A DNA stretch of 64,000 bases, from the NCBI GenBank assembly GCA_950295325.1, contig OX485804.1, positions 45,930,429-45,994,428 on the forward strand. Direction: 5' to 3'. The notes below the pieces were generated by a model. The model made no database searches, had not been told where the DNA came from, and saw only the letters and a program-made list of their open reading frames with translations. Within the stretch, counting starts at the first letter, position 1. Every line of letters starts with the position of its first letter. Below, piece after piece: positions 29,566 through 61,515 of this stretch. This DNA is from Polytrichum commune. Its lineage: Eukaryota; Streptophyta; Polytrichopsida; Polytrichales; Polytrichaceae. The translations under genes and the position numbers were made by a program.

Positions 29566-32500
29566 ATGAGCATGGAGGATGAACCAAGAACCCGACTACC
29601 ACTACATCATCCAGGCCGCATCAGGGCAAGGGACCTGAAGTTGCAGCACAGAGATGAAGAACGTGCAAACATGAATAATTTGTCAAGATATAGGTGCCCG
29701 TGCAATCTTTGTGGGGGTCGGAGGCGGCCCTACAAGACTAGCACAGTTGCACGGCACCTACGGCATCGAGGTAGGCATGGTGCCTTGAGAGGATGGACAG
29801 AGGTAATGTTTTTCCTATACCATGCCTTAGAGGTTGGTTTGCCAAAGTGCTTATATGGATTTTTTGACTTGTAAGTAATCTTGTGCACAAACATGTGTCA
29901 ATTTATTATGTTGGCATTCAGGGTGATGACCACGACTCCTCAGACGAGGAATGGGACAACCACATTGGGAGACACGCTAGAGCATTTCTTGGCCTTAATG
30001 AGCCAATTGTTGAGATAGCACTAGATGACGGGGTAGGAATCGGAATGATGGTACGGAACGCTTTTGCGCGTGCGGACGACATTCACATGCGTGCGTCTGC
30101 AGACGGTTGCTCTTCGACTAGTGTTCCGGATGGCTCACCAATGCACCATCAGCTATTTGGAGTTGAAGAGCCGGTTGGTGTTAACAACATAAATGTGCGT
30201 GGAGAAGTTGGAGAGGTTGCTGCTTCTGAACAAAGACCCATGTGTACATCCACAAGTGACACGGATATGCAGTCCAATTCCGCTTCAAGCCTAGGTGGGA
30301 ATCTGTCCGAGTCGGGTGACTCTCAAAACCAGGAGGCGTGTGGGCATGGAGAAGGACCTGGAAATGGAGGAACCAGCGCAGAGGAAGGATTCTTTGGCAC
30401 GCCTGTCAATGGGGTTCCGGAGGACGATGCAAGCGACTCGTCCAGTGAGAATGATTGGGATGCATCCAATGACATAACTAGTGATGGCGAGGATTTGGAA
30501 GACTTGTTGGGACAAATCCCAAACGATCGCATGGGATCGAATCCTGAGATTGACATTGCTGCCACGCTCCCATTGTATGAGGGTAGCACACTGTCAATGC
30601 TATGCGCGACTTTATTGATTGTGAATTGTTGCAAAACACATGGTGTTTCCAACATGTTCGTGAATGAGCTACTTATGCTCTTAAGCATGAGCATTCTACC
30701 TGTGGGAAATTCCCTTCCCAAAACAGAGTACGAGGCGACCAAAATTCTGCGTAGACTTGGTTTGGCATACAACATGATACATGCATGTCCTAGTGGTTGT
30801 TGTTTATTTAAGGGTGATTTAGAGGACAACGAAAAATGTCCAGTTTGTGAGGCTGATAGGTATAGAATGTGCGGTCGGTCAAGGGTACCGACCTTGATAT
30901 TGCGTCATTTCCCACTAATTCCACAATTGCAAAGAATGTTCAGTTCGAAGAAGTTGTCGAAGTTAAATGTATGGCATCATTTCAACAAGTCAGTAGACGG
31001 AAAGATGAGACACACAGCTGATTCTCCACAGTGGAATTTTGTGCACACAAAATTGGAACCCGAAGCGGGGAACGATATGTTTGGTCGGGATCCACGGGAT
31101 ATCCATCTCGGACTTGCTGTAGATGGCATGAACCCATATTCGGAAAAACGCAGCACCCAGAGCTTAACCCCAGTTATTGTATTCAACTACAATTTGCCTC
31201 CATGGATGGTAACAAAAAAATATTTTGTAATGTTATGTCTTTTGATTCCAACAAAATTAAGTCTAACCGGTTTGAATTTTGATGTGTTCATACAGCCGTT
31301 GGTAGATGAGTTGCAACAACTTTGGAGTCGGAGAGGCGTGCTCACACGGGACGCTAGGGCGTCCATGGGAATGGCTCACTTCAATATGAGAGCTGTTTTG
31401 ATGTGGACATTACACGACTTTCCGGCATATGGGCTACTTTATGGACTAACGACAAAAGGTTTCAAAGCTTGTCCTGTATGCGGACCACATACAATATCAC
31501 GTAGGTCCAAAATACTCCGAAAAAACGTGTACTGCAATTGCCATCGGAGGTATCTTCCACAAGACCACTACTTTCGTGGTGCGGACGCTGCGTTTGATGG
31601 AGAAGCATGTCACGAAATGTCGGAGGAACCACTGACTGGAAACCAAACAATTCGGCGTGGCTATCAGTCGGAGGCATACATTGATGGTGGGGGCACGGAG
31701 AAGGATGCTGAATTTCCAGGCAAGGAGCACGGTGTGAAGAGGGTATCAGCACTTTACCAATTACCATATTGGAGGGTTAGTCTTCAGAACTACAGACTGT
31801 GTATTTTCCTCATCCCTCTTACTACAAACAACATGGACCATCTATGGTTGTTGCTAATTTTTGTCTCACATAAACCAAAAGAAGACGATATCCTCTTATT
31901 CGTGTAATAGATATGTATCTTATAGCCTATCCATAATGTTAATTACTTGGCACATTGGACTGGAAAGTGATTAAGCTGTGAAATAGATAATATTGGTGGA
32001 CAGCTTATTCTTGGTGGCCGCTGTTGCACATCCCCAACAATTGGGGACGTGTGCAGGTTCATGACTGCTATATTATCCGTTCTATATATACTTGACGAGA
32101 CAGACAGGTAGTTGGAATAACTTCCCCCCTAATATTTCGGTTTTGTAATCAATCATTTATTCTTGTGATTCTTTTCTTTGCTGTGGTAAATGGTATAATG
32201 TTGTCATTCTGGTCCATCATAGTTGCGCTTAAGATTTGGTTTAGCTGCTGAATACCGAGTTAGTTACATGAATGCAAGTTCTTTTCTGTTCTATTTCATT
32301 TGTTCATGTGGATTTGTGGGTGGGTGAGATTTCCTGATAATTTGGATGGAGCTAAAACCGTTACTTCCAAGTGCCTGAGTATGCAATGTACTTGTCAGAT
32401 GAATAAAACTCTTAACTGATCTGTTAGCAATCGACATGGGGATCGTATGCATGTCTTTTCTGAACACCAGATGTGAAATTTCTAAGGTTCAAAGTGGGTT

Positions 32501-34824
32501 TGGTAGATGACCCAAAACCAACACTGGAGCCTGATATTTTAAATCAATATGTACATTCTTCAAAATCAATATGTACTTGTAATGCAAGAGTTTAGGGTAT
32601 CGATTGTGAGTGGGGTTATGGTTTTAGCAAGCTCTACCTCTCTTGAGAAGGTGCTTTCTCATGCTGTGTTTGACATGGACACAAATGATGCATAATTGTT
32701 GTAATCCAAATGGTGGAATATCTTTAACGTGCTACATGGATTGGCCGCAGAGACTTCCAATTCGGCACCTGCTGGACGTTATGCACATTGAGCGCAACAT
32801 ATGTGACAGCTTGTTGAAACTGCTATTTGGAGGGAAAGACACTGCAGCATCACGTCGAGACATGGAAGAGGAGAGAATACGAGAACATTTGTGGGTTCGA
32901 CGAGGGCCGTTAGCAGGTGGAAATTATTTCAAACCTGCGGCACCATATGTACTCAGCAAAGAGGAGCAGAAGATATTTTTGGAGCAATTGAATGGTATCT
33001 CTGTACCGACGGGATACTGTGGGCCAATAAAGCGGCACATACTCCGGAATCGGATTGGTAACATGAAGTCACATGACTTCCACATATTTTTTCAGTTTGT
33101 ACTCCCTGTTTGTTTGAGGCATCTTATGGATTCTGGGCCTCGACAGGCCATAATCCGATTGGCAAGGTTGTTCACTATGATATGCAAGAAAGTCATAAAT
33201 GTAGCTGAGTTAGAGCTTCTTCAACATTATGCAGCTGAAACCATGTGCTTAATGGAGATTTGGTTTCCTCCTTCCTTTTTTGACATTATGGTCCATTTGC
33301 CAATCCACCTTGTTAGACAAGTGAAGTTGTGTGGTCCAATTGCAAATGCTTGGTGCTATCCGGTAGAGAGGCACTTGAATGTTTTGAAAAAATATGTCCG
33401 GAATAGGGCACACCCCGAAGGTGCCATTGCTAACGCCTATATGTATGATGAAGCTTTGGGTTTTTGCACCGAGTACTTGAAGTTGTATCCTTTCACACGG
33501 CGAAGGATTTGGGACGATGAAGAGGAGCTAGGCGATTGTGGAGAACTATTGGAAGGAAGAGCCCTACACCGAGAACTAACGAGTGACGAACGACGAGGAA
33601 TCCATTCTTGGATTATAAGGAATTCGGAAGCAACCAGGGAGCCATGGAGGTAAGCTACATGTATACTTTGCCATGAACAATCTCTCTTTGGCAAGCACCT
33701 CTAATGTTTCTTCCGTGAAGTTGAACATTGACTTTATTTTATTTATGCATGATGTAGGCAGTACCAGGCCCTTGTGGAGCAACTAGAGGCGGACAGGGAA
33801 ACCTTCAGAAGAAATGCTGCATTGAGAGGGCTTACACGAAGAGAACAATATAGGTATCCAAATGACCTCTTACATGGACTGCCTGACTTTGTGGATTGGT
33901 TGCCACAGTACACGACCCAATTGGTGAATGCCCATGGTTCTAGCAATGTCGACATTGATTTACTCCGCCTCTCGGCTCTTCCCTCAAAGGAAGCCGAGAC
34001 TTACCAGCAAATGTGGGCCTATGGGAATCACTATAGGGTGGAGAACGAGGGACAGGATCTTGGATTTGTGACCCAAGACTATGGCATCGCCAGTATATTT
34101 GGAGCGGAGGAGGGACGGAGTGCAGGCGTGACCATGGTAGGAGTACTGAAAGAGATCATCGTCGTACGGTACTCGGCACAGAGGAGAGTTGTATTTCGTG
34201 GATCCTGGATCCGCAATGACCCTGGGCCACGATCATCAACGAAGGTAGACCAATATGGCTTCACCGTGGTACATTTCAATGATCGAATAGCAAGAGACAG
34301 GGAACCATATGTGCTACCGGCCACAGTCCGCCAGGTAAGGCATGTGTTGATCATCAACACAGGCATGTTGGAATGTGGCGTACCTCGCTGCATTATGTTT
34401 TATTATATCTTGCAGCTAAGGATGTGCTAATATTTTCTCAAGGAACACAATGACTTGTTATCCATTTCCTCACATGGAACAGGTGTTCTTCATCCAAGAC
34501 TGGTTGCATCCTGGGTGGCGTGTGGTGCTGCAGAAGGAGCCGCGATCAAGGAGAGTATTAGATAACAACGACGAACAAATATTGGGGATATCAGGGGATT
34601 TGAGTGGCCTGCAACTACCGGTGGACATGAACGCAGCAGAATTCCGCCCAAATCTGATGAATGCCGGGGAGACAGTTCCAGCAGCAGAGATGGCCAGGTT
34701 GAATGCCTTGGTCAGGGGGGAGGGACCACATGATGGCCAACATGCGAGAGCTCCTGGGCAAAGGGGAAGGGGAAGGGGAAGGGGAGGCAGGAGGAGAAGA
34801 TTGCCTAGGAGGAATATGAACTAG
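29566..34824 (+). CDS. CACTA TNP2-like transposase (Transposase_21, DUF4218, DUF4216)
   Basis: Exons 29566-29802, 29922-31775, 32751-33649, 33758-34334 and 34483-34824 join in phase to about 1,302 codons with no internal stop. The first exon encodes a zinc-binding N-terminal segment (CPCNLCGGRRRPYKT, then HLRHRGRH). The large exon has an acidic linker, then the Transposase_21 core: LGLAVDGMNPYSEK and MWTLHDFPAYGLL carry the two catalytic Asp regions, followed by KACPVCG. Exon 3 brings HLLDVMHIERNICDSLL, the DUF4218 block (MKSHDFHIFFQF, PPSFFDIMVHLPIHLVRQV, VRNRAHPEG). Exons 4-5 carry a DUF4216-like fold (STKVDQYGFTVVHFND, VFFIQDWLHPGWRVVL) and an Arg/Gly-rich basic tail. It cuts and pastes CACTA ends. 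The start is the ATG opening the first domain-bearing exon; the exact start is uncertain. Confidence 0.88.
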
Positions 34825-39835: not shown

Positions 39836-39942
39836 ATCTAAGAATGTTACCATGTTTGTCTCGCTTACAAGTGAAAATCAGTTTGTGTCCTATCGGTTTG
39901 GTAATGAGATCGGTGACAAGGAGTCCAAAGACGCCTCGTTAT
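39836..39942 (-). pseudogene. Copia reverse transcriptase, upstream part
   Basis: Minus strand reads LITKPIGHKLIFTCKRDKHG then NILRFKVR, the start of the Copia RT domain (KxKxDxxGxIxRxKARLV). It is followed to the right by the inverted leader sequence, so integrase is missing here. Confidence 0.85.
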
Positions 39943-40304
39943 CAACACCGTTAGCTCTTCCACTATAGCTCTTCCATCATAGTTTTTTCTAGCTCTTGCT
40001 CTTGCTTTTTTTCACCCTTTTTATGTTCTTTTCTCCTCCTTCTACAACATCTCTCCGTTAACCATAGCAGTCCACGAGCGTAGAGAACAACCTTAGGATT
40101 TCGAATTAGCAACAAAATTGCAAAACTTAGAGATAGATGTGAACAACAACCTTAAAGACGGTAGTGTAACACAATTGGAAAGGACAATTACTATAGCCGC
40201 ATGTATTGTAACCTCATGCACTGTAGCCGCATGCAATTGAGCCCAAATTAACACAGTTGATTACTATAGACCCCACAGTCATGGCCACGCAACGCCAACC
40301 CCGC

Positions 40305-42405
40305 TGTCGGGTAGAGAGGGTTCCGCCTTGGGAAAGCACTGGGCTTTTGGCTGCAACTAGATTTGTTTATCGGACCGTCGTATCTTCTGGTCTTCAAGAG
40401 TCTCGGTCTTCAGTTTCTTCAAATCTTCAAACTCTTTCCCATCGGTGTCGCGCACCTCTCCATGAGGAGTGCCCGAAACACCATGGGCACAAGGGGGACC
40501 CCGGAGTGACACCCGGGACTTGTGGCGCCGTTGGTGAGAGGGCCCAAGTGATCCTAGTGTGGATGAGGTCCCCAGGCGTTGGGAACGCCTCCCATCCACG
40601 AAGACTAGGAGGCACAAGGGTAAGGCCATGAGCTATGCGTAGCTCATGGCGTAGTGATTCTAGAATGCTCAAGAACACCTCAATCGGAGGTGTGAGCTAG
40701 GAGTTATGGCCATTTGAGTGGGGCGCTGTCCCGGGACAGCGCCCTGCTACAGCAGTGCCTGGGAGTGATTCCCGGGACTGCCAAGGTTCAAACAGGCATA
40801 ACTTCCTCAAGACTTGCCCGAATGGGGCAAGTGAGGAGTCCATCGGCATCTACGTGAAGCGTAGATGAAGATGGAGTGGTTGGTTGCTGGAATCAGACAT
40901 CATACAAGGAAGTTATGATGGTCTGAAGCTGCTGGGGGCTTCTAGGCCCAGCGGCTAAGGGAAAATGTCCACTTGGCCCCAACTCTTGGTAGAGAGACAA
41001 GAGGTTGGTTGACGGTGGGGTAGGGGCCCCGCGTAGAGTCCTAGAGGCTTATATGGGTGAGGTGGTGTGGCCTCACCCACCCGAGGCCGAACGGCACGGC
41101 CTCCATGGGCTTTGGCCCATTGTGAGGCCATAGTTGCCTAGTATGCTTCGGGTTGTTGTAGTGTTGCTCCGGCAACGCGATGATCAACATAAGATTGGAC
41201 TTCCATGAATGGAAGTCCACATCTAAGGAGTGGTTACCGATTAAAGGGGTGAGTCCCGAAATCAAAGTAGGAGGGTTGGTTCCCCTCCTATGAACTAATG
41301 GTCCGGGGTTAGAGGAGCTAACCATTAGCATGGCGGTATGTGAAGGGTTAGCGACTCGTAACCTTTGCTAGAATTGAAAATTGGCAAGATGGTCAAGGGG
41401 GGGCTAGCAAGGGTTGCGACAGTCGGCCTATCCTGTTGCAGCTCTAAATGGGTTAAGGATAAGGGTAGGGTGATAAGAAACCACATGCCTCAAACGGGTG
41501 AAACGGGACGTCAAAACACGAGTTGACGTCCGAAAGATTGGCTCCTAAACTTTCAAACCCACAATGACCAGCAATCGTGCCTCACCAATGGGAACAACAG
41601 AATACAATCTTGTGGGTCATCAATCCCACTTTGTTGTTACAAACACAAAATGGGGTTTTTATGGATTCCCACAAAATCCGCAACAAATTTACGATGCAAA
41701 AAATCAAATGCGACTAGCCTCCAAATCCGGTTGGGATTCACAGAAATGACAACGAACCACAAGCCACAACACACTTGAATCTTGAGAAGTCTTCAAATCT
41801 TCATATGAATACCAAATTGAGCAAATGAGATCTTTACAAAAAGCTAACAATAAGTACTACACTTCCTCAAAGTTTTGTTGCAAACAAAAGACATGTCCGT
41901 CTTCTATGGTCGGTCGAAGTCTCAACCCTTCTTTTTAAGAGCCAACATACCTCCCTCCACTCAAACTAGCACAACTTTTTGCTAACTTCAAATCAAGCAA
42001 GTGAGATCACTCTAGATAAACAACACCATGAAACACAATTCCTCCATTATTTTTTTCAATTTTTTTTTCATAAACTCACACACCATCCGCTTCAACCCAA
42101 AACCTCTTCTATTCAACAACCTCTTCTCTTACAACCACACCAAAAATAATCCTTTTTCTGAGAGAGACAAAATCCCCTTTTTACCTCATCACATGGGCTT
42201 ATAATCTCTCATTGGTCCAAAAATAAACTAAGAATAAAACAAAAGATAAGACTAAAAGGGTAAACTAAAAATAACTAAAAAATAACTAAGAGTAAAAAAA
42301 AAGTAATCTATTTCTATTTCCTTTTACTTTCCTCCAAATCAAATAATCACAATGCAATACTAAATAAGTACACATTTATATAGTGTACGCATTTACATTA
42401 CGACA
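40305..42405 (+). mobile_element. Solo LTR (family A) containing another solo LTR
   Basis: Begins TGTCGGGTAGAGAGGG and ends ATTACGACA, flanked on both sides by CCGC (40301-40304 and 42406-42409), inside Copia gag. It matches the solo LTR at 57314-58469 along its length once the nested 976-bp insert (40446-41421) is removed. No internal coding region accompanies it. LTR-LTR recombination would leave such a structure. Confidence 0.88.
40446..41421 (+). mobile_element. Nested solo LTR (family B) within solo LTR A
   Basis: 976 bp, TGTCGCGCACC to TTGCGACA, flanked by ATCGG (left) and GTCGG (right), a 5-bp duplication with one mutation. The sister LTR at 57314 lacks this block and shows the empty site (CCCGTCGACCTATCC). 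It is GC-richer than its surroundings and has no supported gene. The overlapping ORFs at 40257-40678 are shadows. Confidence 0.85.
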
Positions 42406-42409
42406 CCGC

Positions 42410-43300
42410 GAGACTCGAACACATTCTTTCTTTTTCGATCCGCTCGAGCTATATGGATCCAATTACTTAGGGTGGAACATTGACACGCGTGCATACTTGC
42501 GTGCAGAGGAACTCGACACCACGATCGCTCCTGCACACGAGGAGGAGATCCTAACCTCACACAAATGACATACGCTACTCATCTTGCGTCGACACCTCGA
42601 TTCTTCACTTCGACAGCAATACATCCAAGTCGAGGATCCTGCCGAATTATGGGCGGCGCTGGCGGCACGATTCAAGCATGAAGAGACCATTTTTCTGCCA
42701 CAAGCCCGGAGCGACTGGATCGGCCTCCGCGTAATGGATTTTCCAAATTTCCTCGCATTCAACTCCGAGCTTCACCGCATTGTAGCCCAACTCCGGCTCT
42801 GTGGCGACACCATCAACGACGCCGAGATGATCGATAAGACCCTCTCTACTTTTCCTCCTGCTTGTGCAATTTTGGTTCAACAATATCGCAACATGAAGTT
42901 TACTACACATTCCGAACTCATGTCCTACCTTCTGTTAGCCGAAAAACAACAACAACTGCTCCTCAAGAATGCAGAGTCAAGGCCAGCTAAGGAGATTCAC
43001 AACAACGAAGTCCAGATCCCGCTCATGACAACTAGCTCGGCACCCACACCACACCCGAAGCCGGGCAATCCAAGCAGGGAGTCCCACATCTCCGACGCAT
43101 CACGCCAAAAACCAAAGGGAAATTAAAAGCCCGAGCACACGTGGAACCGATCTTCCAAACCCCAAAGGTACGCGAATCATACCAAAACCAACCGATCCTC
43201 TCAATCGTTGAGAAAAACAGAGAAGGGAACTTGTCATAAATGCGCCAGAAAATGCCACTATGCTAAAGTCTTCGAATGACGACACCATCGAACACAGCAG
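42410..43300 (+). pseudogene. Copia gag (UBN2-like) with zinc knuckle
   Basis: Plus strand, broken by a stop near 42568. It reads ETRTHSFFFDPLELYGSNYL, GWNIDTRAYLRAEELD, then LRRHLDSSLRQQYIQV, LWAALAARFKHEETIFLPQA and LRVMDFPNFLAFNSELHRIV, then a knuckle CHKCARKCHYAKVF. In a CX2CX4HX4C knuckle the last Cys is lost (Phe at that place), and a Cys has replaced the expected Gly. It packages Copia RNA in a live element; here it is dead. Confidence 0.87.
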
Positions 43301-50907: not shown

Positions 50908-51463
50908 ATAGTTGAAAATACCATCCACCATATGTTGGATTGGATTGGATTGGATATGGTTGGTTTGAAATGTGATATGACATTGAATTTGGTATTCCAA
51001 TAAAAAAAATAAAAAATTGAAGCCACTCTTTGCATTATTTTTGAATTACCACAACTAGTGGAGACTGATTTTATGTGAGCAAATTCCTCTTATTCATAAA
51101 CGATATGCCCAAATAATTTAGTCCGCCCCCCCCCCCAAACGCCTACATCAATTCATTTCTCAATACTTGAAATGTGTTTGCATTTGTTGTGTTGAATCTA
51201 GTAACAATGTTGAAATTCATCATGAAACTCTCATGCCAATCTTGTGGTTATTGATTTTGAAAGTAGAATCGTAATAAATTCATTAGGTTCGTTGCATTTT
51301 GTTTGTACTACCTACTTCTAATATTATAGAGAAATACGCAATCAATTATGCCAAAATACCACGGTTATAGGATAATATTGGGTGTAATTCCAAATATTTT
51401 TTCCACCCTCCCTTCTCAAAACTTACCGCTCATTGCTCACCGCTCACATGATAGCACCCCCCG
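50908..51463. other. 3' flank of the methyltransferase-like pseudogene, nothing else recognised
   Basis: AT-rich with a short poly-C run (about 51127-51136). The left limit of the Gypsy element (near 51464) shows no LTR, so its 3' end is missing. Confidence 0.5.
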
Positions 51464-52330
51464 CCCATAGGCATGGCTCTCTGGAAGAATTGAGCCCGCT
51501 CCTGCAAATACTCTGCCCAAATGTTTGGATCATCCAAGTCCACAACATGAGCTAGTTTTTTCTGAATAGAACTCGGGAGTATAGGCTCACGTCCATACAA
51601 CAACTGATACGGGCTGTAGGACGCCAAAGAGGCATGCCTATTAAATCGATAGCCCATAGCAATCCAAGGCAACATAAGGTCCCAATCCCGGTGGCTCCCC
51701 CGAAGTAATCCATAATTCCTCAAGCCACGCTTGGTTGTCTGAACAACCCGTTCAGCCAAGCCATCCGCCTCCAGATGATCCTGAGAGGTGGTGCGGTGAT
51801 CTATGAGCGTCTTAGTACACAACTCCTCAAAAGTACCGAGAAACTCCCTCCCTTGGTCCGTCAATACCTCAGCCGGTGCTCCAAAACGTGCCAACACACG
51901 ATCCAAAAAGGCGGCCGCGGCCAACTCTGCAGAGTTTTGGGGTAAAGCAACAAGCTCAATCTACTTGCTAAAATGCCCCACCATCACCAACACGTACTTT
52001 GCTCCACATGGCGTAACAACCAACGGTTCCGCAAAGTCTAGCGACCAATGGTAGCCCAATCCCATGATAGGTAAGGGCTGTAACTGAGGTGACAAGGTGT
52101 TAAAGCTAGATCTGACCCGGTCACAAACTTCACACCTCCCGACATAAGCAGCCACATGCTGATACATGCCAGTCCACCAATATTGGCCACGCAACATCGA
52201 ATATGTCTTGCGTATGCCAAAATTGGCCAAGTTCCTCGTGCATTTGTCGCACCAAGGAGACCCTCTGATCCGGCCTAGGGATAATACGCCTTGTCCCATC
52301 TGACCACAATCGAAATAACAAATTGTTTTC
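51464..52330 (-). pseudogene. Gypsy integrase, C-terminally truncated
   Basis: The zinc-binding start (YWWTGMYQHVAAYVGRCEVC) is followed by the core: SLDFAEPLVVTPCGAKYVLV (first Asp), VLTDQGREFLG (second Asp), ADGLAERVVQTTKRGLRNYG (Glu) and SPYQLLYGREPILP. A stop splits it near 51960. The C-terminal DNA-binding part is lost. Confidence 0.92.
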
Positions 52331-52349
52331 CCAACTGAACCTTGTTATT

Positions 52350-52915
52350 CGATGTCCAATCCTATCCCTTTCCATTGCCGAAATAGACGAAGGAAAGGTC
52401 CCCTGCTGGAGCTTATGCAATATAGGAAGATCTTCCCATATATTCGCAACAGTTTGAGGTCGATCAGTCTCATCATCCGAGCCTTGTATCGGAACCTCAA
52501 CAGCCGCATACCAACCTGGAACCGCCTCTCGATCACAATCTCCATGCCACCCGGCCCCGGTCAAGTCCTCATCCAAAGGACTTGGATTGCGTGATAGTCC
52601 ATCTGCATCCAGGTTGGTAATTCCAGCACGGTGCACCACCTCAAAGTCATACTCTTGAAGCAACAAAGCCCATATGGCGAGCTTGCCAGTAAGCTTATCC
52701 GACTCCATCAACCACTGTAACGGCTGATGCTCAGTCACCAAAGTAAAGCGCTGACCATAGAAATATGGCCGGAAATGGGCAATAACCCACACCGCCGCCA
52801 ATGCTTCTCCCTCATAGGACGAATAATTGGCCTCCGCCGTGTTGTTGCTTCGCGACGCGTAAGCAACAACATACTCCCGGCCAAAGTCATCTTTCTAAGT
52901 GAGAACTGTTCCTAA
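52350..52915 (-). pseudogene. Gypsy RNase H and linker
   Basis: Begins within LGTVLT*KDDFGREYVVAYAS and continues RSNNTAEANYSSYEGEALAA, PYFYGQRFTLVTEHQPLQWL and VHRAGITNLDADGLSRNPSP, the usual Ty3/Gypsy RNase H to integrase linker. The first catalytic Asp region is missing, lost at the junction with the foreign block to the right. Confidence 0.92.
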
Positions 52916-54258
52916 ATTGTCACCAAAAATTCTCCACCCTTCGATTTCGTCCTAGCCCGAGTGGAAAAATTATAATGACACGTAGAAAATCCTCCCTCGG
53001 TAATTCAATAAACATCATAAGTCAAAAACATCATAAGTCAAAAACTATAAGAATGTGTCACTATTTTTTTGGAAGTTTGGACATAGTCTCGGTTTTTTTG
53101 GCTTTCAAAAATTCATATGAAGTCCAAAAAATGAGTTCTTGGTATCCATGGATAGGTAATGAAGTCCTCTACATGAATATGTAATAATATTTCTACTGCC
53201 ACAAAGTATATGGTCGCAATTCTACGCTGTTCCCTTTGAATCTGCATTTTTTCACTAGTTTTTGGAAGTTTGGACATAGTCTCGGTTTTTTTGGCTCTAA
53301 AAAATTCATATGAAGTCCAAAAAATGAGTTCTTGGTATCCATGGATAGGTAATGAAGTCCTCTACACGAATATGCAATAATATTTCTACTGCCACAAAGT
53401 ATATGGTCGCAATTCTACACTGTTTCCTTTGAATCTGCATTTTTTTACTAGTTTTTGGAAGTTTGGACATAGTGTCGGTTTTTTGGCTCTCAAAAATTCA
53501 TATGAAGTCCAAGAAAACTAAATGCTCCAATAAGAAACTTTGCACATCCGCATAAGTATAAGGCTAATCAATTTAAATCAAAGTATTCAAACAAAGCCAT
53601 AAATTGAACTTTAAGTTATTCACGCCCAACTATTACTAACAATAGGTCAAGCCCTCTTCAAGGCCAACTAGCCTTGGCTCTTAACCTTACACCCATGCAT
53701 ACACACGTGCTCCTATCTTGCTTCCCACGCACCCACACTTATAACACGTGGGGTGCCAAGGAGCACGAAGGAAAAAGAGGAGGAGTGAGGAAAGAACGAG
53801 GTCTTAAATAATGAATTTAAGGAGGTGAGCACCTTCAAGGCTCACGATAAGCCTTCGAAATCTCCTCCTACTTTGTAGGCTCTCATCTTATCTCTTAAGC
53901 CCTTTTCCTAAAACAAACACCAAAGGTCCTAATTCAATCATTTAACTACCATTGGGTCTCTACCTACTACGCTCACCAACTACGGAGCTTCCTTTTACTA
54001 CTACATTTTTAATCAATCCACTCCAAATGAGCCTAATGCTTAAACCTAGCTTCTTTGAAGCTTCACTCTTTTTATATTTTTGTAAATAATCATAAAACAC
54101 TAAAACATCACTTGTAATGGTTTACAAGAGTTAAAACAAACATGTGGGCCCATTTTGGGCTGACATAAACCCAATGAGCTCCAGTCCGTATGCAACTAGA
54201 AAGATTTGGAAACATTTGGACGTCGAAGCACTGGAGCCGTACCCAATTTTTGCTGATC
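52916..54258. other. Foreign block replacing part of Gypsy pol
   Basis: Between RT (ending NFSLISK) and RNase H lies 1.34 kb of AT-rich DNA with a 193-bp tandem repeat. About 60 codons of pol are missing at the junctions, so the event included a deletion. No LTR or inverted ends were identified. Confidence 0.6.
53071..53510. repeat. 193-bp tandem repeat
   Basis: GGAAGTTTGGACATAGT recurs at 53071, 53264 and 53457, an exact 193-bp period. There are two full units plus a partial third. The full units are nearly identical (CATATGAAGTCCAA, TGGTATCCATGGATAGG, TATGGTCGCAATTCTAC in each). Confidence 0.95.
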
Positions 54259-55110
54259 AAGCTAAAGTTCTTGACGAATCGTCGGTAGTAATTCGCCAAG
54301 CCCAAGAAAACACGAAGTCTCGGCACATCAACTGGTGCCGGGATCTTCTGCAAGGCATCCACCTTAGCTTGTTGCACCCCAAGACCTCCTGGAATAATCA
54401 TATGACCTAGGTATGCCAGTCGGTCATGGAAAAACTTGCACTTGCCATGGTGTAAGCGCAATCCCCACCGCTGCAAGCGTTCAAAAACGGCTTGCAGGTG
54501 CCTAACATGATTTTGTGGTGTCTTGCTGAAGATGATCATGTCATCAATATAACACCGAGCAAATGGCAAGCCAGAGAGGACCTGATCTATCACTCTTTGA
54601 AACTCAGCATGTGCATTCTTGAGGCCAAATGGAAGAAACTTCCAATGGTACAGTTGATCCTTCCCATCCTGATCAACTCCCCAGAATGCAGTCTTCACCC
54701 GATCTCCCATAAGTAATGGGAGCTGGTAATAGCCGGATCTCAAGTCCAACGGCATCGAACAATTCCTCCGGGATTGGCATGGGATACCGATCCGACTTGG
54801 TCTTCCGGTTAACTGGACGGTAATCCCCGCACATCCGCTTATCCGTCCAATTGCCAAAGATGTTCTTCTTCGATGGCATAACCGTAGCACAAGCATACTC
54901 CCCGTTGGACAGTTCGATTAGCCTTGCTGCCAAGAGCTCTCGGCAACGAGCCTTAACGCCAATCCGCTCGGAAACACTGAGCCTATAAGGTCTTCGAAAA
55001 ATGGGATGGTCGTCCTCCAACTGAATGTGGATGGGTTTCCTTTATAGCCTTCAAGATCTTGAAGGCTAAAGGCAAAACACCTATGGTACGAGTGAATAAA
55101 TGCTCGTACT
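54259..55110 (-). pseudogene. Gypsy reverse transcriptase
   Basis: Minus strand: LELGLHLTGAEARKVRAFIH upstream, then DDHPIFRRPYRLSVSERIGV, RMCGDYRPVNRKTKSDRYPM, LDLRSGYYQL, FWGVDQ, FLPFGLKNAHAEFQRVIDQV, CYIDDMIIFSK (the YxDD catalytic box) and FLGLANYYRRFVKNFSLI. At least one frameshift near 54780 splits the domain. The catalytic aspartates are present. Confidence 0.93.
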
Positions 55111-55547
55111 TTTCGTGCCTCAGCACCAGTGAGATGAAGGCCCAATTCCAATGGCCAATCATCAAACTCTGTGGTCTTCCTCTCCACTAGAAGAGAGCCA
55201 CATGGTGTTGGCACGCACTCTAACTGCTAATGAGAGGAGGGGGCCTTAACCATGCCCCCAACCTCTGTGCTAGCAATAAAGTCCATCCCCTCTTCATCAC
55301 CACCAATATGTGATGATGAAGCCACCACCGGAGGTGAAGAAGCCAAAGCAGTTGAAACCCGTTAAGCTCGGAGCTCCTCCATGACCTGCTGCTCAAATCG
55401 AAAGATTCGTTCAGCTTCTCCAACCATGACCTCAATTCCCTCCTCCATGGATGTAGACCGCTGTGCCCCCTGACCAAAATCCGCTGCCCCCATAGATAAC
55501 AATTGGTCACCATGGTGTCATTGCAAGGCAAGGTATAAACCAACAGT

Positions 55548-56489
55548 TTACACCATGGTATGAAGATCCATGGCTTGGCCCAACACAAAGCGTTGTTGGC
55601 CCTTAGAAAGGCCAGGAGTTGCGGTGGTACCCGTGCGGAATCCTATGGCACGCTCCCGTTCATCAGCCAAGGGTTCGGTGTGGGTTTTGGTGTTAGCATC
55701 CCACACCATACCCGGCCCCCGATCGCGGAAGACGAATGACTGTGAAAATGTCATAAAGGTGGGAAAGGCCCTCCGTGGTGCTCCCACTTTGTTGACCAAT
55801 GCCAACGGGGGTAAATCATCTCAAACAACCGGCAAAGAGGTCCGGTTTGGATCCAAGATGTCATCCACCTTCTGATCCAAAGGTGGAGGCATTGCAGAAA
55901 ATGCTGCAGCTAAAGTAGATGACGGTGCGAGGTTGGTCCAAATCCACCGTGGCCGGGGGGCATAAGAACCAATGCTCGCGGCATCCACAAAAATGGGATC
56001 TCCAAGGTGTTGACGAACATAATAATCACCTTCCAACACCTTGTCCCAAGAGTCTCTAAAAAAATGTACATTATCGAAAATATACCCTGGAGGAAAAGGT
56101 TGGTAGAAAAACCACCACTGCATGAGGCGGATGAGGTCCCAAAATAGACTAGACCTGGGATCCTCTAGTCCTCCGCCTGCTCCAGCACGTGAATGGCCCT
56201 GGCATGGCCATCCCGCAATCACCATATCCACCGAACCCAAGTGTCGTAAGTCGGCCTCACTGATGAATGTGACATCACGAGGGAGACGTGAAAAACACCC
56301 AGGAATGGCAGTTGGGTGTAACTGTTGGGGGTACAATACCATCAACTGGTGAAGATGGTGACGAGCCACACGGGTGGACACTGGAGAGTTGTCCACATAG
56401 ACATACCGTTTGACTGTGAGGCCAGCCTCCAATACGGCTGTTAATCCCGTCCCAATGCCCCCAAACAGTTCCACCAAAGTAATCCCCGC
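55548..56489 (-). CDS. Cytosine-5 DNA methyltransferase domain inside Gypsy pol
   Basis: A domain of about 314 codons, in frame after the protease. Residue numbers refer to the ORF starting at 57215: motif I LVELFGGIGTGL (F251-G257), motif II YVYVDNS, motif IV IAGWPCQGHSRAG with catalytic Cys 338 (codon 56204-56202), motif V GLEDPRSSLFWDLIRL, motif VI-like YIFDNVHF (ENV expected; Asp 381 replaces Glu), motif VIII-like PRPRWIWTNL. A TGA at 55823-55821 breaks the frame. Beyond it motif IX (ADERERAIGF) and motif X (GQQRFVLGQAMDLHTM) continue to a TAA near 55545. The short VIII-IX gap resembles Dnmt3/DRM enzymes, and PCQ resembles Dnmt1/2 types. It would methylate cytosine with SAM. Retrotransposon DNMTs are known from dinoflagellates and charophytes. 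This copy is probably inactive. Confidence 0.9.
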
Positions 56490-57215
56490 GTCTGGCGGCC
56501 GCCACAAAATGGGATGTGCCAATGCCGACGGGGCATCCGGTATGACCGGTGTCCTAGGAGTGAGAGAGAGGACAATGTCCTCACACCTCCGGAATAGGTC
56601 GGCGGAATCGCGCCAGGGAGGAATGGGAGCCTTGGGATGGCGCACCACTGCACTCTTAGGTGCCATATCCCGTTGATCGTATGTACTCCCCATGAATGCC
56701 AGTGACTCCTCCAACAATGCGGAACCATAAGGCAAAGTATCTACAATAGCATCACATCCAAAGACCATGGATAATGGTGCTATGGTCGCGGCCGCCGCGA
56801 ATGCCACAGAAATAAGCTCCCTATGGCCGTCCCCAACAGACCAACTTGGTCGGATCCACGCCTCCTCAGTCCAGTTGTCCAAACCAAAGCCAAGAGGATA
56901 AAGTGCTTGCTGACCAACTAAAATATCATAGTTGGTTGCATCCGTCACCATACACCTAAGAAGAAGAGGTGCTGGTGGATCTCCAGGTTTCACTCGGAAG
57001 CTAAGCTGTAATGGCTCCCAAGTATAACATGTGGCCCTCTCCACGTGACCAACGGATGTGACAATGGTGAATGGACATGGAGCCAAGTCCTCAGCCGCCA
57101 ATCCCAACTCCTGGGCAAGCCTCTTGCCGATCATAACCGGTTGTGCCCCTGAATCCATCATCACACAACGGGGAGCAACCCGAGTGGCATTGCCCCCAGT
57201 CCGACTGACCACCAA
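56490..57215 (-). CDS. Gypsy retropepsin-like aspartic protease and linker
   Basis: The ORF that continues into the methyltransferase begins with CVMMDSGAQPVMIGKRLAQE, where D21-S22-G23 is the retropepsin catalytic triplet. It is followed by PFTIVTSVGHVE, LSFRVKPG and TNYDILVGQQALYPLGFGLD, the second half of the fold. Residues of about 120-240 form a linker leading to the methyltransferase. The protease would release the enzymes from the polyprotein. The ORF start shown is only the first Met; translation should come from gag, upstream of the solo LTR. Confidence 0.9.
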
Positions 57216-60200
57216 ATGTCGATATCATTCACCATATGTACGACACCGGGTCGAATGCCACGGCGTTCGCGAGCAGGTCTAGCAGCTACATCAGACAGAT
57301 AAGCTGCTTCCGCTGTCGGATAGAGAGGGTTCCGCCTTGGGAAAGCGCTGGGCTTCTGGCTGCAACTAGATTTTATCGGACCCATCGAATCTTCTGATCT
57401 TCAATCGAATCTTCCGGTCTTCTAGTCTTCAATTTCTTCAATTTCTTCTAATCTTCAACCTCTTTCCCGTCGACCTATCCTGTTGCGGCTCTATATGGAT
57501 AAAGGGTAAGGGTAGTGTGATAAGAAACCACGGCTTCGGACGGGTAAAACGGGACGTCAGAACACGAGCTGACGTCCGAAAGATTGGCTCCTAAACTTTC
57601 AAACCCACGGTGACCAGCAATCGCGCCTCACCAGTGGGAACGACAGAAAACAACCTTGTGGGTGATTAATCCCACTTCGTTGTCACAAACAACCTTGTGG
57701 GTGATTAATCCCACTTCGTTGTCACACAGGAAACAAATTACGATGCAGAAATGAAATGCAACTAGCCTCCAAAACCGGCTTGGAATCACACACACAAGAA
57801 AAAGACAACGTGCCACAAGCAACCACACATTCGAGTCTTGAAGCCTTCAATTCTTTAATCTGTCCGTCTTCTATGGTCGGTCGAAGTCTCAGCTCTTCTT
57901 TTAAGAACCAACATACTTCCCTCCACTCAAACAAGCACAAATCTTGATTGCTAACTTCCAAAACAACAAGTGAGATCTCTCATGAATCACAAATCCCTCG
58001 TATTTTATTCCATATTCTTCTCAAAACAACTCACACCGTGAGCTTCGAATCCACTTCTCTCTCTCAACAACTTCTCTCCCACAATAATCACCTAACATCT
58101 TTCCTTCACCACCTCTCCCTATCCATGCGAGAGACAAAGTTCTCTCTTATCCTCATCACATGGCTTCTAATCACCCATTGGTCCAAAGTAACTCAAGATA
58201 ACTAAAAGACAAAAATAAACTATGAGTAAATAAAAAGGTAATCTATTTCTATCATTTGGTAAAGGTAACTAAGAGTAACTATGAGTAAACATAAAGGTAA
58301 GCAACTTCTATCCACTTCTATCCTTAGGTAATGATAGCTAAAATAAACTATGAGTAAATAAAAAAAGTAATCTACTTCTATTCTTTATTATTTTTATCCA
58401 AGACCAAGAATCACAATGCAATATTAAATACGTACACATCTATATAGTGTACGTATTTACATCACGACACCGCGGATTGTGGTGAGTCATAAGACGTAGT
58501 CGGCCCCCTGTCATCTGAGGTGTGTGCATCAAAAGACGCAATGGTCTCTGCGGCAAGCCTCGCTCGCCGGTTGGCCACTTCATCGGGGTCTTCAGAAGCG
58601 GGGATGTCTGTAGTGGCTTGGGCCACGGTCAGGGAAGGTGAGGATGTTTTCCCTTCCAAAATCCTACCCGCTAAGTGGAAGACCTTAGCAGGTTGGAATT
58701 CTGGCGACGACCACTCCATAGCCGTGAACAAAAGGGTGTGCAACACTTTGGATGCCAAAGTGTGCACCATGCCAGTCGCTGGATTCGAAGTCTCCAAGCT
58801 CGAATGATGACCACTTACAGATTGGACCGCATCCGCCAATCCAAAAGATAATGGCAAACGGGCCTGGCCAATATGATCCGTGGGACCATTGCTCCGAGCT
58901 CGTAAGCTCTCCATATAGTCCCCTGTGGTCGAGGGCGTGGCTCGTGACACGGATTGAGCATGTGTCACCGCTGCGGAACTCACCATTTTTCCTGAGGCTC
59001 CGAACATATAATAATCCGGAGTAGAAGAACTAGCCTTAGCAGCGGAGGAGGACAATGAGTTCAAGATTTGGCCAGATGACGCCAAACTTTTGAACCTCTC
59101 CTCCAATGCTTCAATCTTCCCCTCCAACGCCTTTTCCCGATTGGAAGAAGGACGTTTCTCTGGATGGAGAGCAAAGCAGTTCTCCACCATGTGATTGTTC
59201 CACCCACAATGGGAGCACGTCAACTGCTTGGGTAAATGCTTACCTGCCCCCTTCGTCGAATCCTTTGCGGGATCAAATGGTTTCCGCTTTGGATTGCCTA
59301 CGGTCTGGGCTTGCCTTTGCTTCGAAGGACAATCCTTCTTAGCGTGGCCCGCCTGCCCACAAGACCAACAATGCAAGGTCTTTTCCACCTCCGCCTCCGC
59401 CAATCCTGCAGTCGCGACTGGCGCCTTCCGGGATTTGCTAGAATCCACTAGCAAGGACACCAAATTAGTGGCATCGTGCTGACACAATGCACGATCACAC
59501 TGCTCCACAATGGCGAATGCCTCTGTGAGTGTCGCTCGACCACCATAGTCCATGATGATCCTGGACAGCGCCAAGTCAAGGAAGCGTTTGTCAATCTTGG
59601 ACAAAAACACCTTCACCAATTGATTTTCCGCAAACACACCTCCAAATTCTCTGGTAAACCTCGCCAACCTCGTATACATGGTACGAGGTGTATCGTCATT
59701 CTCTCGTCTAAAATCTTGTATCCGCTGCATCTGGTCCCGACGGAAACCTCCATACTCCTCATGTAGATGCAGCTCAAATGCCCGCAACGGCTCAAAAACC
59801 GGCAGAGCTCCCAAAGAGGCTAAAGCCGCCTGGGTAGCCTGGGCATAACGGGAGAGTGGAAGAATAAAGCTTGACGTATTCGCCACAGCGGGAGCAGAAC
59901 CCTTATCCTTGGGTACACCAGGAGAAGCTCCCTCCACATCCACCACATATACTCCCTCTGGCACGTTTGACTTAACCTCAGGGACGGCCATGAAACTGGA
60001 AGCTGCGCCTTCCTTCAATGCGGATACCAACTCAACCCGAGTCTCCCAGTACCGCTCCACTTGGCGCAACTCCATCCAATGAGCCTCCGTCCACTGCTCA
60101 TAAGTTTGGAGAGTTTCGTGCTCCAAATGCTGAGGCAGAAGCTCGAACGTATACCAATCGTTAAAATTGGTATTGCGTTGGCTATTCTCTCACATTCATG

Positions 60201-60290
60201 TACGAAACCGGATTTTCCAGTCTTGCAGAGAAATGATCCCTGATCGACCGGAAAACCGGTCCCGTATCCCTCCCCTAGTCTCCTCCTCCA
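57160..60290 (-). pseudogene. Gypsy gag with two zinc knuckles, split by a solo LTR
   Basis: A 554-codon open stretch (60126-58462) lacks only the first codons, which begin near 60290 (MEEETRGGIRDRF) with a stop between. The N-terminal half carries the retrotransposon gag fold (AFELHLHEEYGGFRRDQMQR, YTRLARFTREFGG, FLSKIDKRFLDLAL). Two CX2CX4HX4C knuckles follow: CWSCGQAGHAKKDC (C253-C266) and CSHCGWNNHMVENC (C304-C317). Past the solo LTR (57314-58469) gag resumes with EAAYLSDVAARPARERRGIR and passes to protease. It packages element RNA in a working copy. Confidence 0.88.
57314..58469 (+). mobile_element. Solo LTR (family A) inserted in Gypsy gag
   Basis: 1,156 bp, TGTCGGATAGAGAGGG to ACATCACGACA, flanked on both sides by CCGC (57310-57313 and 58470-58473). 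It is the sister of the solo LTR at 40305-42405 without the nested block. A 38-bp segment (ACAACCTTGTGGGTGATTAA start) is tandemly doubled at 57649-57726. Gag reads through cleanly if it is removed. Confidence 0.9.
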
Positions 60291-60388
60291 TATTGTCAAA
60301 GGTTCCCACCCACAGGATGTGAGACCGAGTGATAGTCCTCACGCCGAAGTAGGCTGAAAAACCTCGTTGGGTGCTACCATTGGTTCAA

Positions 60389-61082
60389 TGTCTGAGAGGT
60401 CCGAGGGATGACCTTCTGATGTTCATGGTAACGGATAACGATAGTGTTGAGTACGAGTTGTAACCATAAACCCACAATGGAATGGTCATCAAATCAACAA
60501 CCCAAATGAATTAGTATTCAGGTACAAAGAGAAAAGTGGTCAAAGACAACATGTATCACCCTTCAACTTGATGTGACATCTACAAGAAAACATTTTTCTT
60601 CTTGTTGCTCCAACAATCCGCGGTTTTCTCTGTTCCAAAACTCTGGAACTTTGTCTCTCCTTGCCCCCATGCGCCCCCTTGCATGTTACATCTCAAGAAT
60701 CAAGAAAAAAAGAGAAAAAAATATAAAAATGAAGCATTCTTGCCAAGTGAGAAGGAAGAGAGTCAAACACTCATAAGAGCTCTAAATCTCTCTTCAAATG
60801 CACACAATGAGTCAAACTATCTCTCACTCCACCGTAGGAGAATCCAAGAGTGTAAATAGGGGAAGAAGAACTTAGGATTTATTGCAAAAACATGCAATCT
60901 TCACCTCACACAAGCTTTCTCCACACACTCACTAACAAGACTTGACTTGGCAAGAATACCAAGCCAAAGAGGAGGCTCTTTACTTAGGAGCCTTCCTCTC
61001 CACATCTAGATTTATCCATCCAAATCTAGATGGATGAAATCCAACAGATAAGGTGTGGTCATCGACGCCGTATACCGTGACA
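60389..61082 (-). repeat. Gypsy 5' LTR
   Basis: On the minus strand it starts TGTCACGGTATACGG at 61082 and ends near GAGACA at 60389, giving TGTC...GACA termini and about 694 bp. The primer-binding region follows (TTGAACCAATGGTAGCACCC). The outer edge is fixed by Copia gag sequence resuming at 61083 (GTTCCATCCTAAG). The inner edge is less certain. Confidence 0.7.
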
Positions 61083-61515
61083 GTTCCATCCTAAGTAATT
61101 GGATCCATCTAGCTCGAGCGGATCGAAAAAGAGAGAATGTGTTCGAGTCTCGCGGGGTTGGCGTTGCGTGGCCATGACTGTGGGGTCTATAGTAATCAAC
61201 TGTGCTAATTTGGGCTCAATTGCATGTGGCTACAGTGCATGAGGTTACAATACATGCGGATATAGCAATTGTCCTTTCCAATCGTGTTTCACTACCGTCT
61301 TTAAGGTTGTTGTTCATATCTATCTCTAAGTTTTGCAAATTTGTTGCTAATTCGAAATCCTAAGGTTGTTCTCTATGCTCGTGGACTGCTATGGTTAGCG
61401 GAAAGATGCTGTAGAAGGAAGAGAAAAGAACAGAAAAAGGGTGAAGAAGAGCAAGAGCAAGAGCAAGAGCTATGGTGGAAGAGGTATGGCGGAAGAGCTA
61501 ACGGTGTTGATAACG
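61083..61515 (-). pseudogene. Copia leader and gag start
   Basis: The minus strand directly after the 5' LTR begins CGTTATCAACACCG (primer-binding region), then a leader of about 330 bp, then ATGGCCACGCAACGCC (MATQRQPRETRTHS) and FFDPLELDGSNYLGWN-like codons, where the Gypsy insertion cuts gag. It pairs with the inverted copy at 39943-40304 and 42406-42480. Confidence 0.88.

Follow-up and report, generated by a model that had tools for sequence, protein, structure and literature searches.

A dead Polytrichum commune copy of a Ty3/Gypsy-type retrotransposon that carries a Dnmt3-like DNA methyltransferase

The window analysed here is a 64,000-nucleotide stretch of the Polytrichum commune genome (C2:45930429-45994428, within a 407.8-Mb, 64-contig assembly in which seven contigs of 42.1–77.9 Mb make up ~406 Mb). 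On its minus strand, from 61082 to ~51463, lies a decayed Ty3/Gypsy-type retrotransposon with the order gag, protease, C5-DNA methyltransferase (DNMT), reverse transcriptase (RT), RNase H and integrase. The original prediction of a Gypsy element with a built-in C5-methyltransferase was borne out, with a PF00145 match (6.7e-10) and RT, RNase H and integrase downstream. The DNMT is a conserved, standing part of a high-copy element and no accident, as it was found directly upstream in all 30 best-scoring of 150 scored matches to the pre-RT region in the same genome, and has dN/dS values of 0.27 and 0.15. The copy seen here is dead and truncated; in better-kept copies, ORF1 (gag, protease, DNMT) is followed by an in-frame UAG and by ORF2 (RT, RNase H, integrase, PHD finger). 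We consider it fairly probable that this UAG is leaky, that the DNMT methylates the element's own new copies and that the PHD finger guides integration.

The two-ORF layout is seen in L007, a 9,285-bp contig with a 127-nt terminal repeat. L007 ORF1 encodes gag, with CCHC-like knuckles recognised by eye, protease and DNMT, and ORF2 encodes RT, RNase H, integrase and the PHD finger. Pfam matches in L007 were RVT_1, RT_RNaseH, Integrase_H2C2 and rve, while protease matches were below cut-off only. L007 is filed in a cyanobacterial (Synechococcales) bin, and its content is that of a eukaryote-type retroelement; P0016 is likewise a retroelement contig in a Candidatus Obscuribacterales record. Both placements are probably bin contamination.

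The copy in the window

The 5' terminal repeat of the window element (A1, 60749–61082) starts TGTCACGG at 61082, and matches A1 and A2 of another copy in this genome at 84% and 91%, respectively. As comparison with another copy set the 5' end at 61082, the piece at 61083–61515 was rejected as the element's own LTR and is flanking, probably target, sequence. This piece matches window positions 39937–40304 and 42403–42478 (self-BLAST). The sequence adjoining 61082 is copia-like and was probably the target of the insertion. A Copia-type gag (PF14223, slightly below cut-off) is found at 42569–43126, and the sequence at 61083–61515 is related to its upstream region. Elsewhere in the window, a CACTA-type transposase (PF02992, 4.5e-60) and DUF4218 lie on the plus strand at 29868–33653.

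The gag region with its CCHC knuckle spans 58450–60470 (tblastn with pieces of L007 gag) and includes an open frame at 60189–58465; the zf-CCHC match scored 20.0 bits, slightly below the cut-off of 20.8. An insert of ~1.2 kb (57305–58474), recognised by self-BLAST and as a gap in the tblastn chain, separates gag from protease. By self-BLAST, this insert and window 40301–42410 are two copies of one inserted sequence. The aspartic protease region (56502–57215), with the DSG motif, is 57% to L007 by tblastn, and its PF13975 and PF13650 matches are below cut-off.

The Dnmt3-like methyltransferase follows at 55344–56501. It is 57.5% to the L007 DNMT and has motifs I, IV, VI, VIII, IX and X; the fold of the L007 relative also forms part of the basis for this assignment. 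The frame from 57224 to 55821 (minus strand, 467 aa) carries the PF00145 match, and this profile check, proposed at the outset, placed it above the family cut-off; the aspartic-protease matches upstream of the DNMT in this frame are below cut-off. A single minus-strand frame had been proposed for 55548–57215. Protease and DNMT do share a frame, but it is not one open frame, being interrupted by a stop at 55823–55821 and ending at another at 55550–55548. Motifs IX and X lie beyond the first stop, in 55820–55548, in the same frame. The methyltransferase core is therefore present, as predicted, with motifs IX and X included, but motif VI reads DNV rather than ENV in the window copy. The proposed span also covers only part of an element that reaches 61082 and breaks off near 51463.

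In frame with the DNMT and the pre-RT is a TAG followed by CAGTTA (55221–55229, with the TAG at 55229–55227), a UAG CARYYA context that is kept in other copies. The predicted order, with DNMT between protease and RT in pol, was correct, but the DNMT is the end of ORF1 and this in-frame TAG precedes RT. The pre-RT linker and RT occupy 54249–55226 (tblastn; RVT_1, 3.8e-24) and contain frame changes. A second insert of ~1.2 kb (52916–54165), which contains 193-bp tandem repeats, interrupts the start of RNase H; RNase H (52583–52915) and a truncated integrase (51463–52432) were both identified by profile matches and tblastn. No match to a PHD finger was found at the integrase end with L007 parts as tblastn queries, no 3' repeat block was seen in comparison with other copies in this genome, and the 3' end has been lost. 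With its stops, frame changes, two inserts and missing 3' end, the window copy is dead and unable to make its proteins. A repeat search for LTRs within the 64-kb window and scans for tRNA and Rfam families were unproductive or weak.

The methyltransferase as a standing part of the element

When the window frame was used in a protein search, 39 homologous proteins were returned (best E value 1.1e-203), of which the best-scoring shared 88% identity over 75% of the query, so the homology is well beyond chance. One of these, P0035, is named Closterium. The longer L007 ORF1 returned 42 relatives, including proteins from Marchantia polymorpha (P0059–P0062 and P0064) and Closterium (P0080). In many relatives gag, protease and DNMT are found in one protein, and the protease–DNMT junction is common to the homologues. 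When PF00145 was used to search the P. commune genome (408 Mb), 352 candidates were returned; all 123 that were scored exceeded the family cut-off and 18 lie in open frames of at least 1350 aa, though part of these matches could be host genes. The corresponding pre-RT search returned 463 candidates, and 34 of the 150 scored have open frames of at least 1040 aa, one with an internal stop.

It is next to impossible that an assembly error or a chance insertion fused a host methyltransferase gene with a retroelement: the protease–DNMT junction was found at many loci, with every one of the seven large contigs represented, as well as in unrelated records, and the second copies refute such a fusion. 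A shared junction in second copies had been set beforehand as the test of the original prediction; it was found in homologues and in this genome, and since the order protease–DNMT–RT is common to second copies, the ground on which the prediction had offered to be refuted is removed.

Among 200 proteins, 119 had a DNMT match. By position, 49 were classed as A, with the DNMT between protease and RT, and 53 as B, with it between RNase H and integrase; 16 were unplaced and one was ambiguous. RT or RNase H precedes the DNMT in 28 of the 53 class B proteins; the rest are partial proteins, classed by an integrase after the DNMT with RT missing. P0029, which is of window type and has an internal deletion, was misfiled in this class and is absent from the trees.

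A model of the L007 domain, as representative of the kind of METHYLTRANSFERASE, had a pLDDT of 88 and a pTM of 0.89. When it was used in a fold search, all 50 listed PDB matches (of 178 at E ≤0.001) were DNMT3A, 3B or 3C entries, with TM scores of up to 0.67 by query and 0.82 by target. By sequence, the 29 best of 49 PDB matches to the L007 DNMT were DNMT3, followed by HaeIII, HhaI, 3g7u and DRM; the best single PDB match of the window frame was the E. coli enzyme 3g7u. Motifs I, IV, VI, VIII, IX and X are in canonical order and not rearranged as in DRM (the window copy is altered at VI and carries stops). A DRM origin was rejected, given the canonical motif order and the far weaker DRM matches. 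The predicted fold of the relative's domain and the motif order support a Dnmt3-like DNMT. Animal DNMT3A and DNMT3B share the catalytic fold and motif order but have PCN where the element has PCQ, and identity in the listed fold alignments is 20–22%. The mixture of Dnmt3-like and PCQ features noted originally was confirmed, as 42 of the 44 protease-side and unplaced sequences have the Gln of PCQ. Pfam scans of the L007 frames matched neither ADD nor PWWP. In the DNMT tree with outgroups, the sequences from outside the elements were one partial DNMT3A and bacterial or phage enzymes, and rooting was weak, with very long outgroup branches (2.8–3.9).

A scan of viral contigs returned six loci, and those examined were phage- or Streptomyces-type C5-methyltransferases. 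Four Streptomyces and phage-type enzymes (L001, L004, L005 and L008) have the peptide IAGWPCQ in common with the element; as the scan patterns included IAGWPCQ, sharing this peptide says nothing about kinship.

The catalytic Cys and the Glu of ENV are present in all 44 full-length protease-side and unplaced sequences (window excluded), and each in 35 of 37 RNase H-side sequences. An alignment of 40 sequences (38 loci from this genome, the window and L007) has the Cys in 38, with two not covered, and the Glu in 35, with Asp in the window and L046, Lys in L033 and two not covered. Two RNase H-side proteins of Tetrabaena socialis (P0128 and P0132) have lost the catalytic Cys and Glu motifs in the alignment, and by eye a partial RNase H-side protein of Volvox reticuliferus (P0117) has lost the catalytic motifs too; in these three the domain is retained but seems to be dead. 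Glu replaces Pro before the catalytic Cys (EC for PC) in 18 of 37 RNase H-side and 2 of 44 protease-side sequences, which to our knowledge is unusual among C5-methyltransferases.

Codon comparisons used stop-free, single-frame copies (24 DNMT, 34 pre-RT, 8 protease), a choice that leans to intact copies and lowers the values somewhat; the doubled copies L014/L037, L023/L097 and L026/L096 were removed, and pairs with undefined or very small dS were omitted. For the DNMT, dN/dS was 0.27 within subfamily 2 (114/136 pairs), 0.15 between subfamilies (96/102 pairs) and 0.09–0.12 in comparisons with L007, in which dS approaches saturation; 14 very close pairs within subfamily 1 gave 0.45. The pre-RT gave 0.18 within subfamily 2, 0.09 between subfamilies and 0.10–0.13 against L007. 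For the protease, the within-subfamily values were 0.58 and 0.78, from 3 and 6 pairs, and comparison with L007 gave 0.13. These values point to purifying selection on the DNMT domain, less clearly within very close copies.

Trees were built from DNMT domains of at least 270 profile positions, with L004 and L006 omitted from the outgroup tree. In the 65-row DNMT tree without outgroups, which counts unplaced rows as class A and includes P0017, P0022, P0024 and P0032 (meant for thinning or dropping), class A plus unplaced rows and class B are split at 100/100, and the Marchantia sequences group with the window's clade (100/96). The RT tree is also split into two sides, at 100 by SH-aLRT: one contains 7 class A rows and 18 rows without a DNMT in the same protein, the other 24 class B rows and one without DNMT. 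The two different sites in pol, together with layouts that are split in the DNMT tree and nearly so in the RT tree, could reflect two separate captures of Dnmt3-like genes rather than one capture and a later move inside pol. A single capture followed by one move would also be expected to give the same RT/DNMT split and a shared PHD-bearing integrase, in trees drawn without plant host Dnmt3, and we hold two captures to be possible but somewhat doubtful.

The in-frame stop, the PHD finger and the termini

In L007, a single TAG followed by CAATCA lies directly between ORF1 and ORF2 in the same frame. TAG and CARYYA were found in all 37 resolved loci of this genome (33 CAATTA, three CAATCA, one CAGTTA), which represent 36 distinct copies because L014 and L037 are the same copy. 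At L019 the pre-RT alignment gave no resolution, and reading down from the DNMT gives TAG CAATCA and then a second TAG. Among 20 further copies, 19 fit TAG CARYYA, the exception being L066 with TAG CTAGCA. Thus, 57 copies in this genome, the window included, all have the TAG and 56 have CARYYA, in a sample drawn mostly from two subfamilies of one genome. A random hexamer matches CARYYA about once in 512. As the sampled copies are kin, the argument rests on the hexamer being kept where neighbouring bases differ, between the two subfamilies and L007.

UAG CAR YYA has been described as the essential context in tobacco mosaic virus (TMV), with 32% readthrough in one plant assay (PMC2754532). By analogy with this TMV-type context, readthrough of the stop is likely in this element. 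Expression of ORF2 by re-initiation, or by splicing across the stop, seems quite unlikely to us. One Marchantia gene model (P0060) does place DNMT and RT in one protein, perhaps through splicing or because its lineage lacks the stop. On the other side, the DNMT and pre-RT are in a common frame in 34 of 37 loci, the TAG is present in every copy in which the stop was read, CARYYA is kept while its neighbours differ in the two subfamilies and L007, and the context is the one published as essential in TMV (PMC2754532). If readthrough is the route, most ribosomes would stop at the UAG, so that the methyltransferase would be made in Gag-like amounts, and a minority would read on to give the full polyprotein, the parts of which the protease would free.

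The L007 integrase ends in a PHD finger (PF00628, 4.3e-10), and the finger was matched in all ten 3' pieces from the P. commune genome. The nearest solved relatives of the L007 finger include those of CHD4, PHF12, UHRF1, KDM5 and PHF21A, several of which are readers of the unmodified H3 tail. By analogy, the element's finger may be specific for the H3 tail without K4 methylation. When the integrase end with the PHD finger was used as a query, 268 matches were returned, and the PHD label is common among the 120 listed, including Haematococcus, Volvox and Tetrabaena records. In P0112 (labelled Chrzof1) and P0074, the stretch C-terminal to the finger resembles an adenine methyltransferase by eye; PF02086 was matched in P0112 only, at 0.0027 and below cut-off, and P0074 had no match.

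The termini were analysed in ten copies picked among those with long open frames, which are not a random age sample. The 5' repeat A1 (333–567 bp) recurs near the 3' end as A2 in eight of these, at 99.3–100% identity, which indicates recent insertion. The pair is missing in L088, where the 5' sequence is probably too short to reach the repeat, and no A1/A2 repeat was found in the L086/L087 pair when it was looked for. B1 (~105–110 bp), which precedes A2, recurs after it as B2 in nine of ten 3' pieces. The layout is thus A1 ... B1-A2-B2, in which the 3' block exceeds the 5' repeat in length. In all eight copies, with A1 and B2 as the ends, the termini are TGTC...GACA and the target duplication is 4 bp long. 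The joint between B1 and A2 reads GACA-GC-TGTC in all eight and in L007, and looks as though the element's two ends had once been joined.

The order protease–RT–RNase H–integrase with a DDE integrase, the TG...CA termini and the short target duplication are those of Ty3/Gypsy elements, but one identical LTR at each end was not found; the repeats are LTR-like but split. Split direct repeats (A-coding-B-A-B) are those of DIRS elements. Membership of DIRS was rejected, as no tyrosine recombinase was found in the three L007 frames scanned, which have an rve integrase instead. The split repeats and 4-bp duplications together indicate ends that are DIRS-like, yet insertion like that by a DDE integrase.

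Known relatives and a possible role

The closest published element is KnitGypsy-Dnmt3 of Klebsormidium nitens, in which a Dnmt3-related, intronless DNMT under purifying selection lies in a Gypsy Pol ORF, with DIRS-like repeats (de Mendoza et al. 2018, PMC5890265). Compared by description, the two families share a Gypsy pol, a non-rearranged Dnmt3-type DNMT and DIRS-like split repeats; the window family stands apart by its host, by the probably leaky UAG behind the DNMT, and by having an integrase PHD finger and 4-bp target duplications. In the main text of PMC5890265, PHD, Marchantia, Volvox and readthrough are never mentioned. A search on KnitGypsy-type terms returned this paper as the sole related match, and among titles and abstract openings on Gypsy-integrase PHD fingers, Marchantia DNMT3, Volvox and split repeats, such an element appeared only there. 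No sequence named K. nitens was among the matches listed in our protein searches, in which most rows are nameless. In a 2025 survey (PMC12344493), LTR Copia and DIRS elements of streptophytes and dinoflagellates are mentioned as carrying an embedded DNMT3, with de Mendoza et al. 2018 as the source. Because a Gypsy-Dnmt3 element has been published for K. nitens, this kind of element is already known, and to that extent the suggestion of a new family or host lineage does not stand. It holds in that the host, the relatives in Marchantia and Closterium, the probably leaky stop, the PHD finger and the duplications of 4 bp go beyond the parts of PMC5890265 consulted.

SymbioDIRS-Dnmt3 of Symbiodinium, as described in PMC5890265, also has a Dnmt3-type DNMT in the ORF of RT and DIRS-type repeats, but it uses a tyrosine recombinase, whereas the window family has a DDE integrase and 4-bp duplications. 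Chromoviruses are, in outline, Gypsy elements with a chromatin-reader domain at the integrase C-terminus; theirs is a chromodomain, whereas the window family has a PHD finger and a DNMT. The likely readthrough has parallels in RIRE2-type rice Gypsy elements (candidate) and the TMV replicase (proven, with UAG CAR YYA; PMC2754532), the difference being that the product upstream of the stop in the window family includes a methyltransferase.

In the reading that we favour, the methyltransferase would be packaged and would mark newly made element DNA, either inside the particle or where it integrates, to the element's possible advantage, and the PHD finger would steer the integrase to histone H3 without K4 methylation. 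Some points go against self-marking. The observed/expected CpG ratio is 0.62–0.77 in the coding parts of the window element and 0.49–0.67 in four surrounding stretches, so CpG is not depleted relative to the surroundings and the values give no hint of added self-methylation. When the K. nitens Gypsy DNMT was tried in yeast, no methylation resulted, an outcome that its authors called inconclusive (PMC5890265). The domain is also dead in some relatives, and in this genome L033 and L046, like the window, have another residue in place of the ENV Glu. Alternatively, the DNMT may bind nucleic acid or have a structural role within the Gag particle, or its methylation may be directed at host targets and not at the element's own DNA. 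This would fit both the CpG values of the window element and the RNase H-side proteins P0128 and P0132, which keep the domain without its catalytic Cys. We consider it unlikely, because all 44 protease-side and unplaced sequences keep the catalytic Cys and the Glu of ENV and the domain is under purifying selection, both of which would fit an active enzyme. The DNMT may serve as camouflage, as self-restraint or in a structural role.

More tentatively, and with some doubt, these elements may form a long-lived green-lineage clade with a complete 'read and write' kit for chromatin. In the readthrough product, a PHD reader of the H3K4me0 type would be joined to a Dnmt3-type writer, the amount of which a leaky stop like that of viruses would hold at Gag level; this would rebuild the pairing of ADD and catalytic domains in animal DNMT3. 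New copies would then arrive methylated, as camouflage or self-restraint, and in the RNase H-side clade, which is seen in volvocine algae, the DNMT would have moved within pol and been partly disabled.

Retrotransposons are among the main targets of DNA methylation. A methylating enzyme as a conserved and selected part of such an element raises the question of how self-marking would benefit it, and as young copies with open frames are present in this genome, the question can be tested in a living plant and not only in fossils. The leaky stop leads to a specific prediction of dose and the PHD finger to one of target choice, while the two DNMT positions in related pol genes offer a natural comparison of the domain's role.
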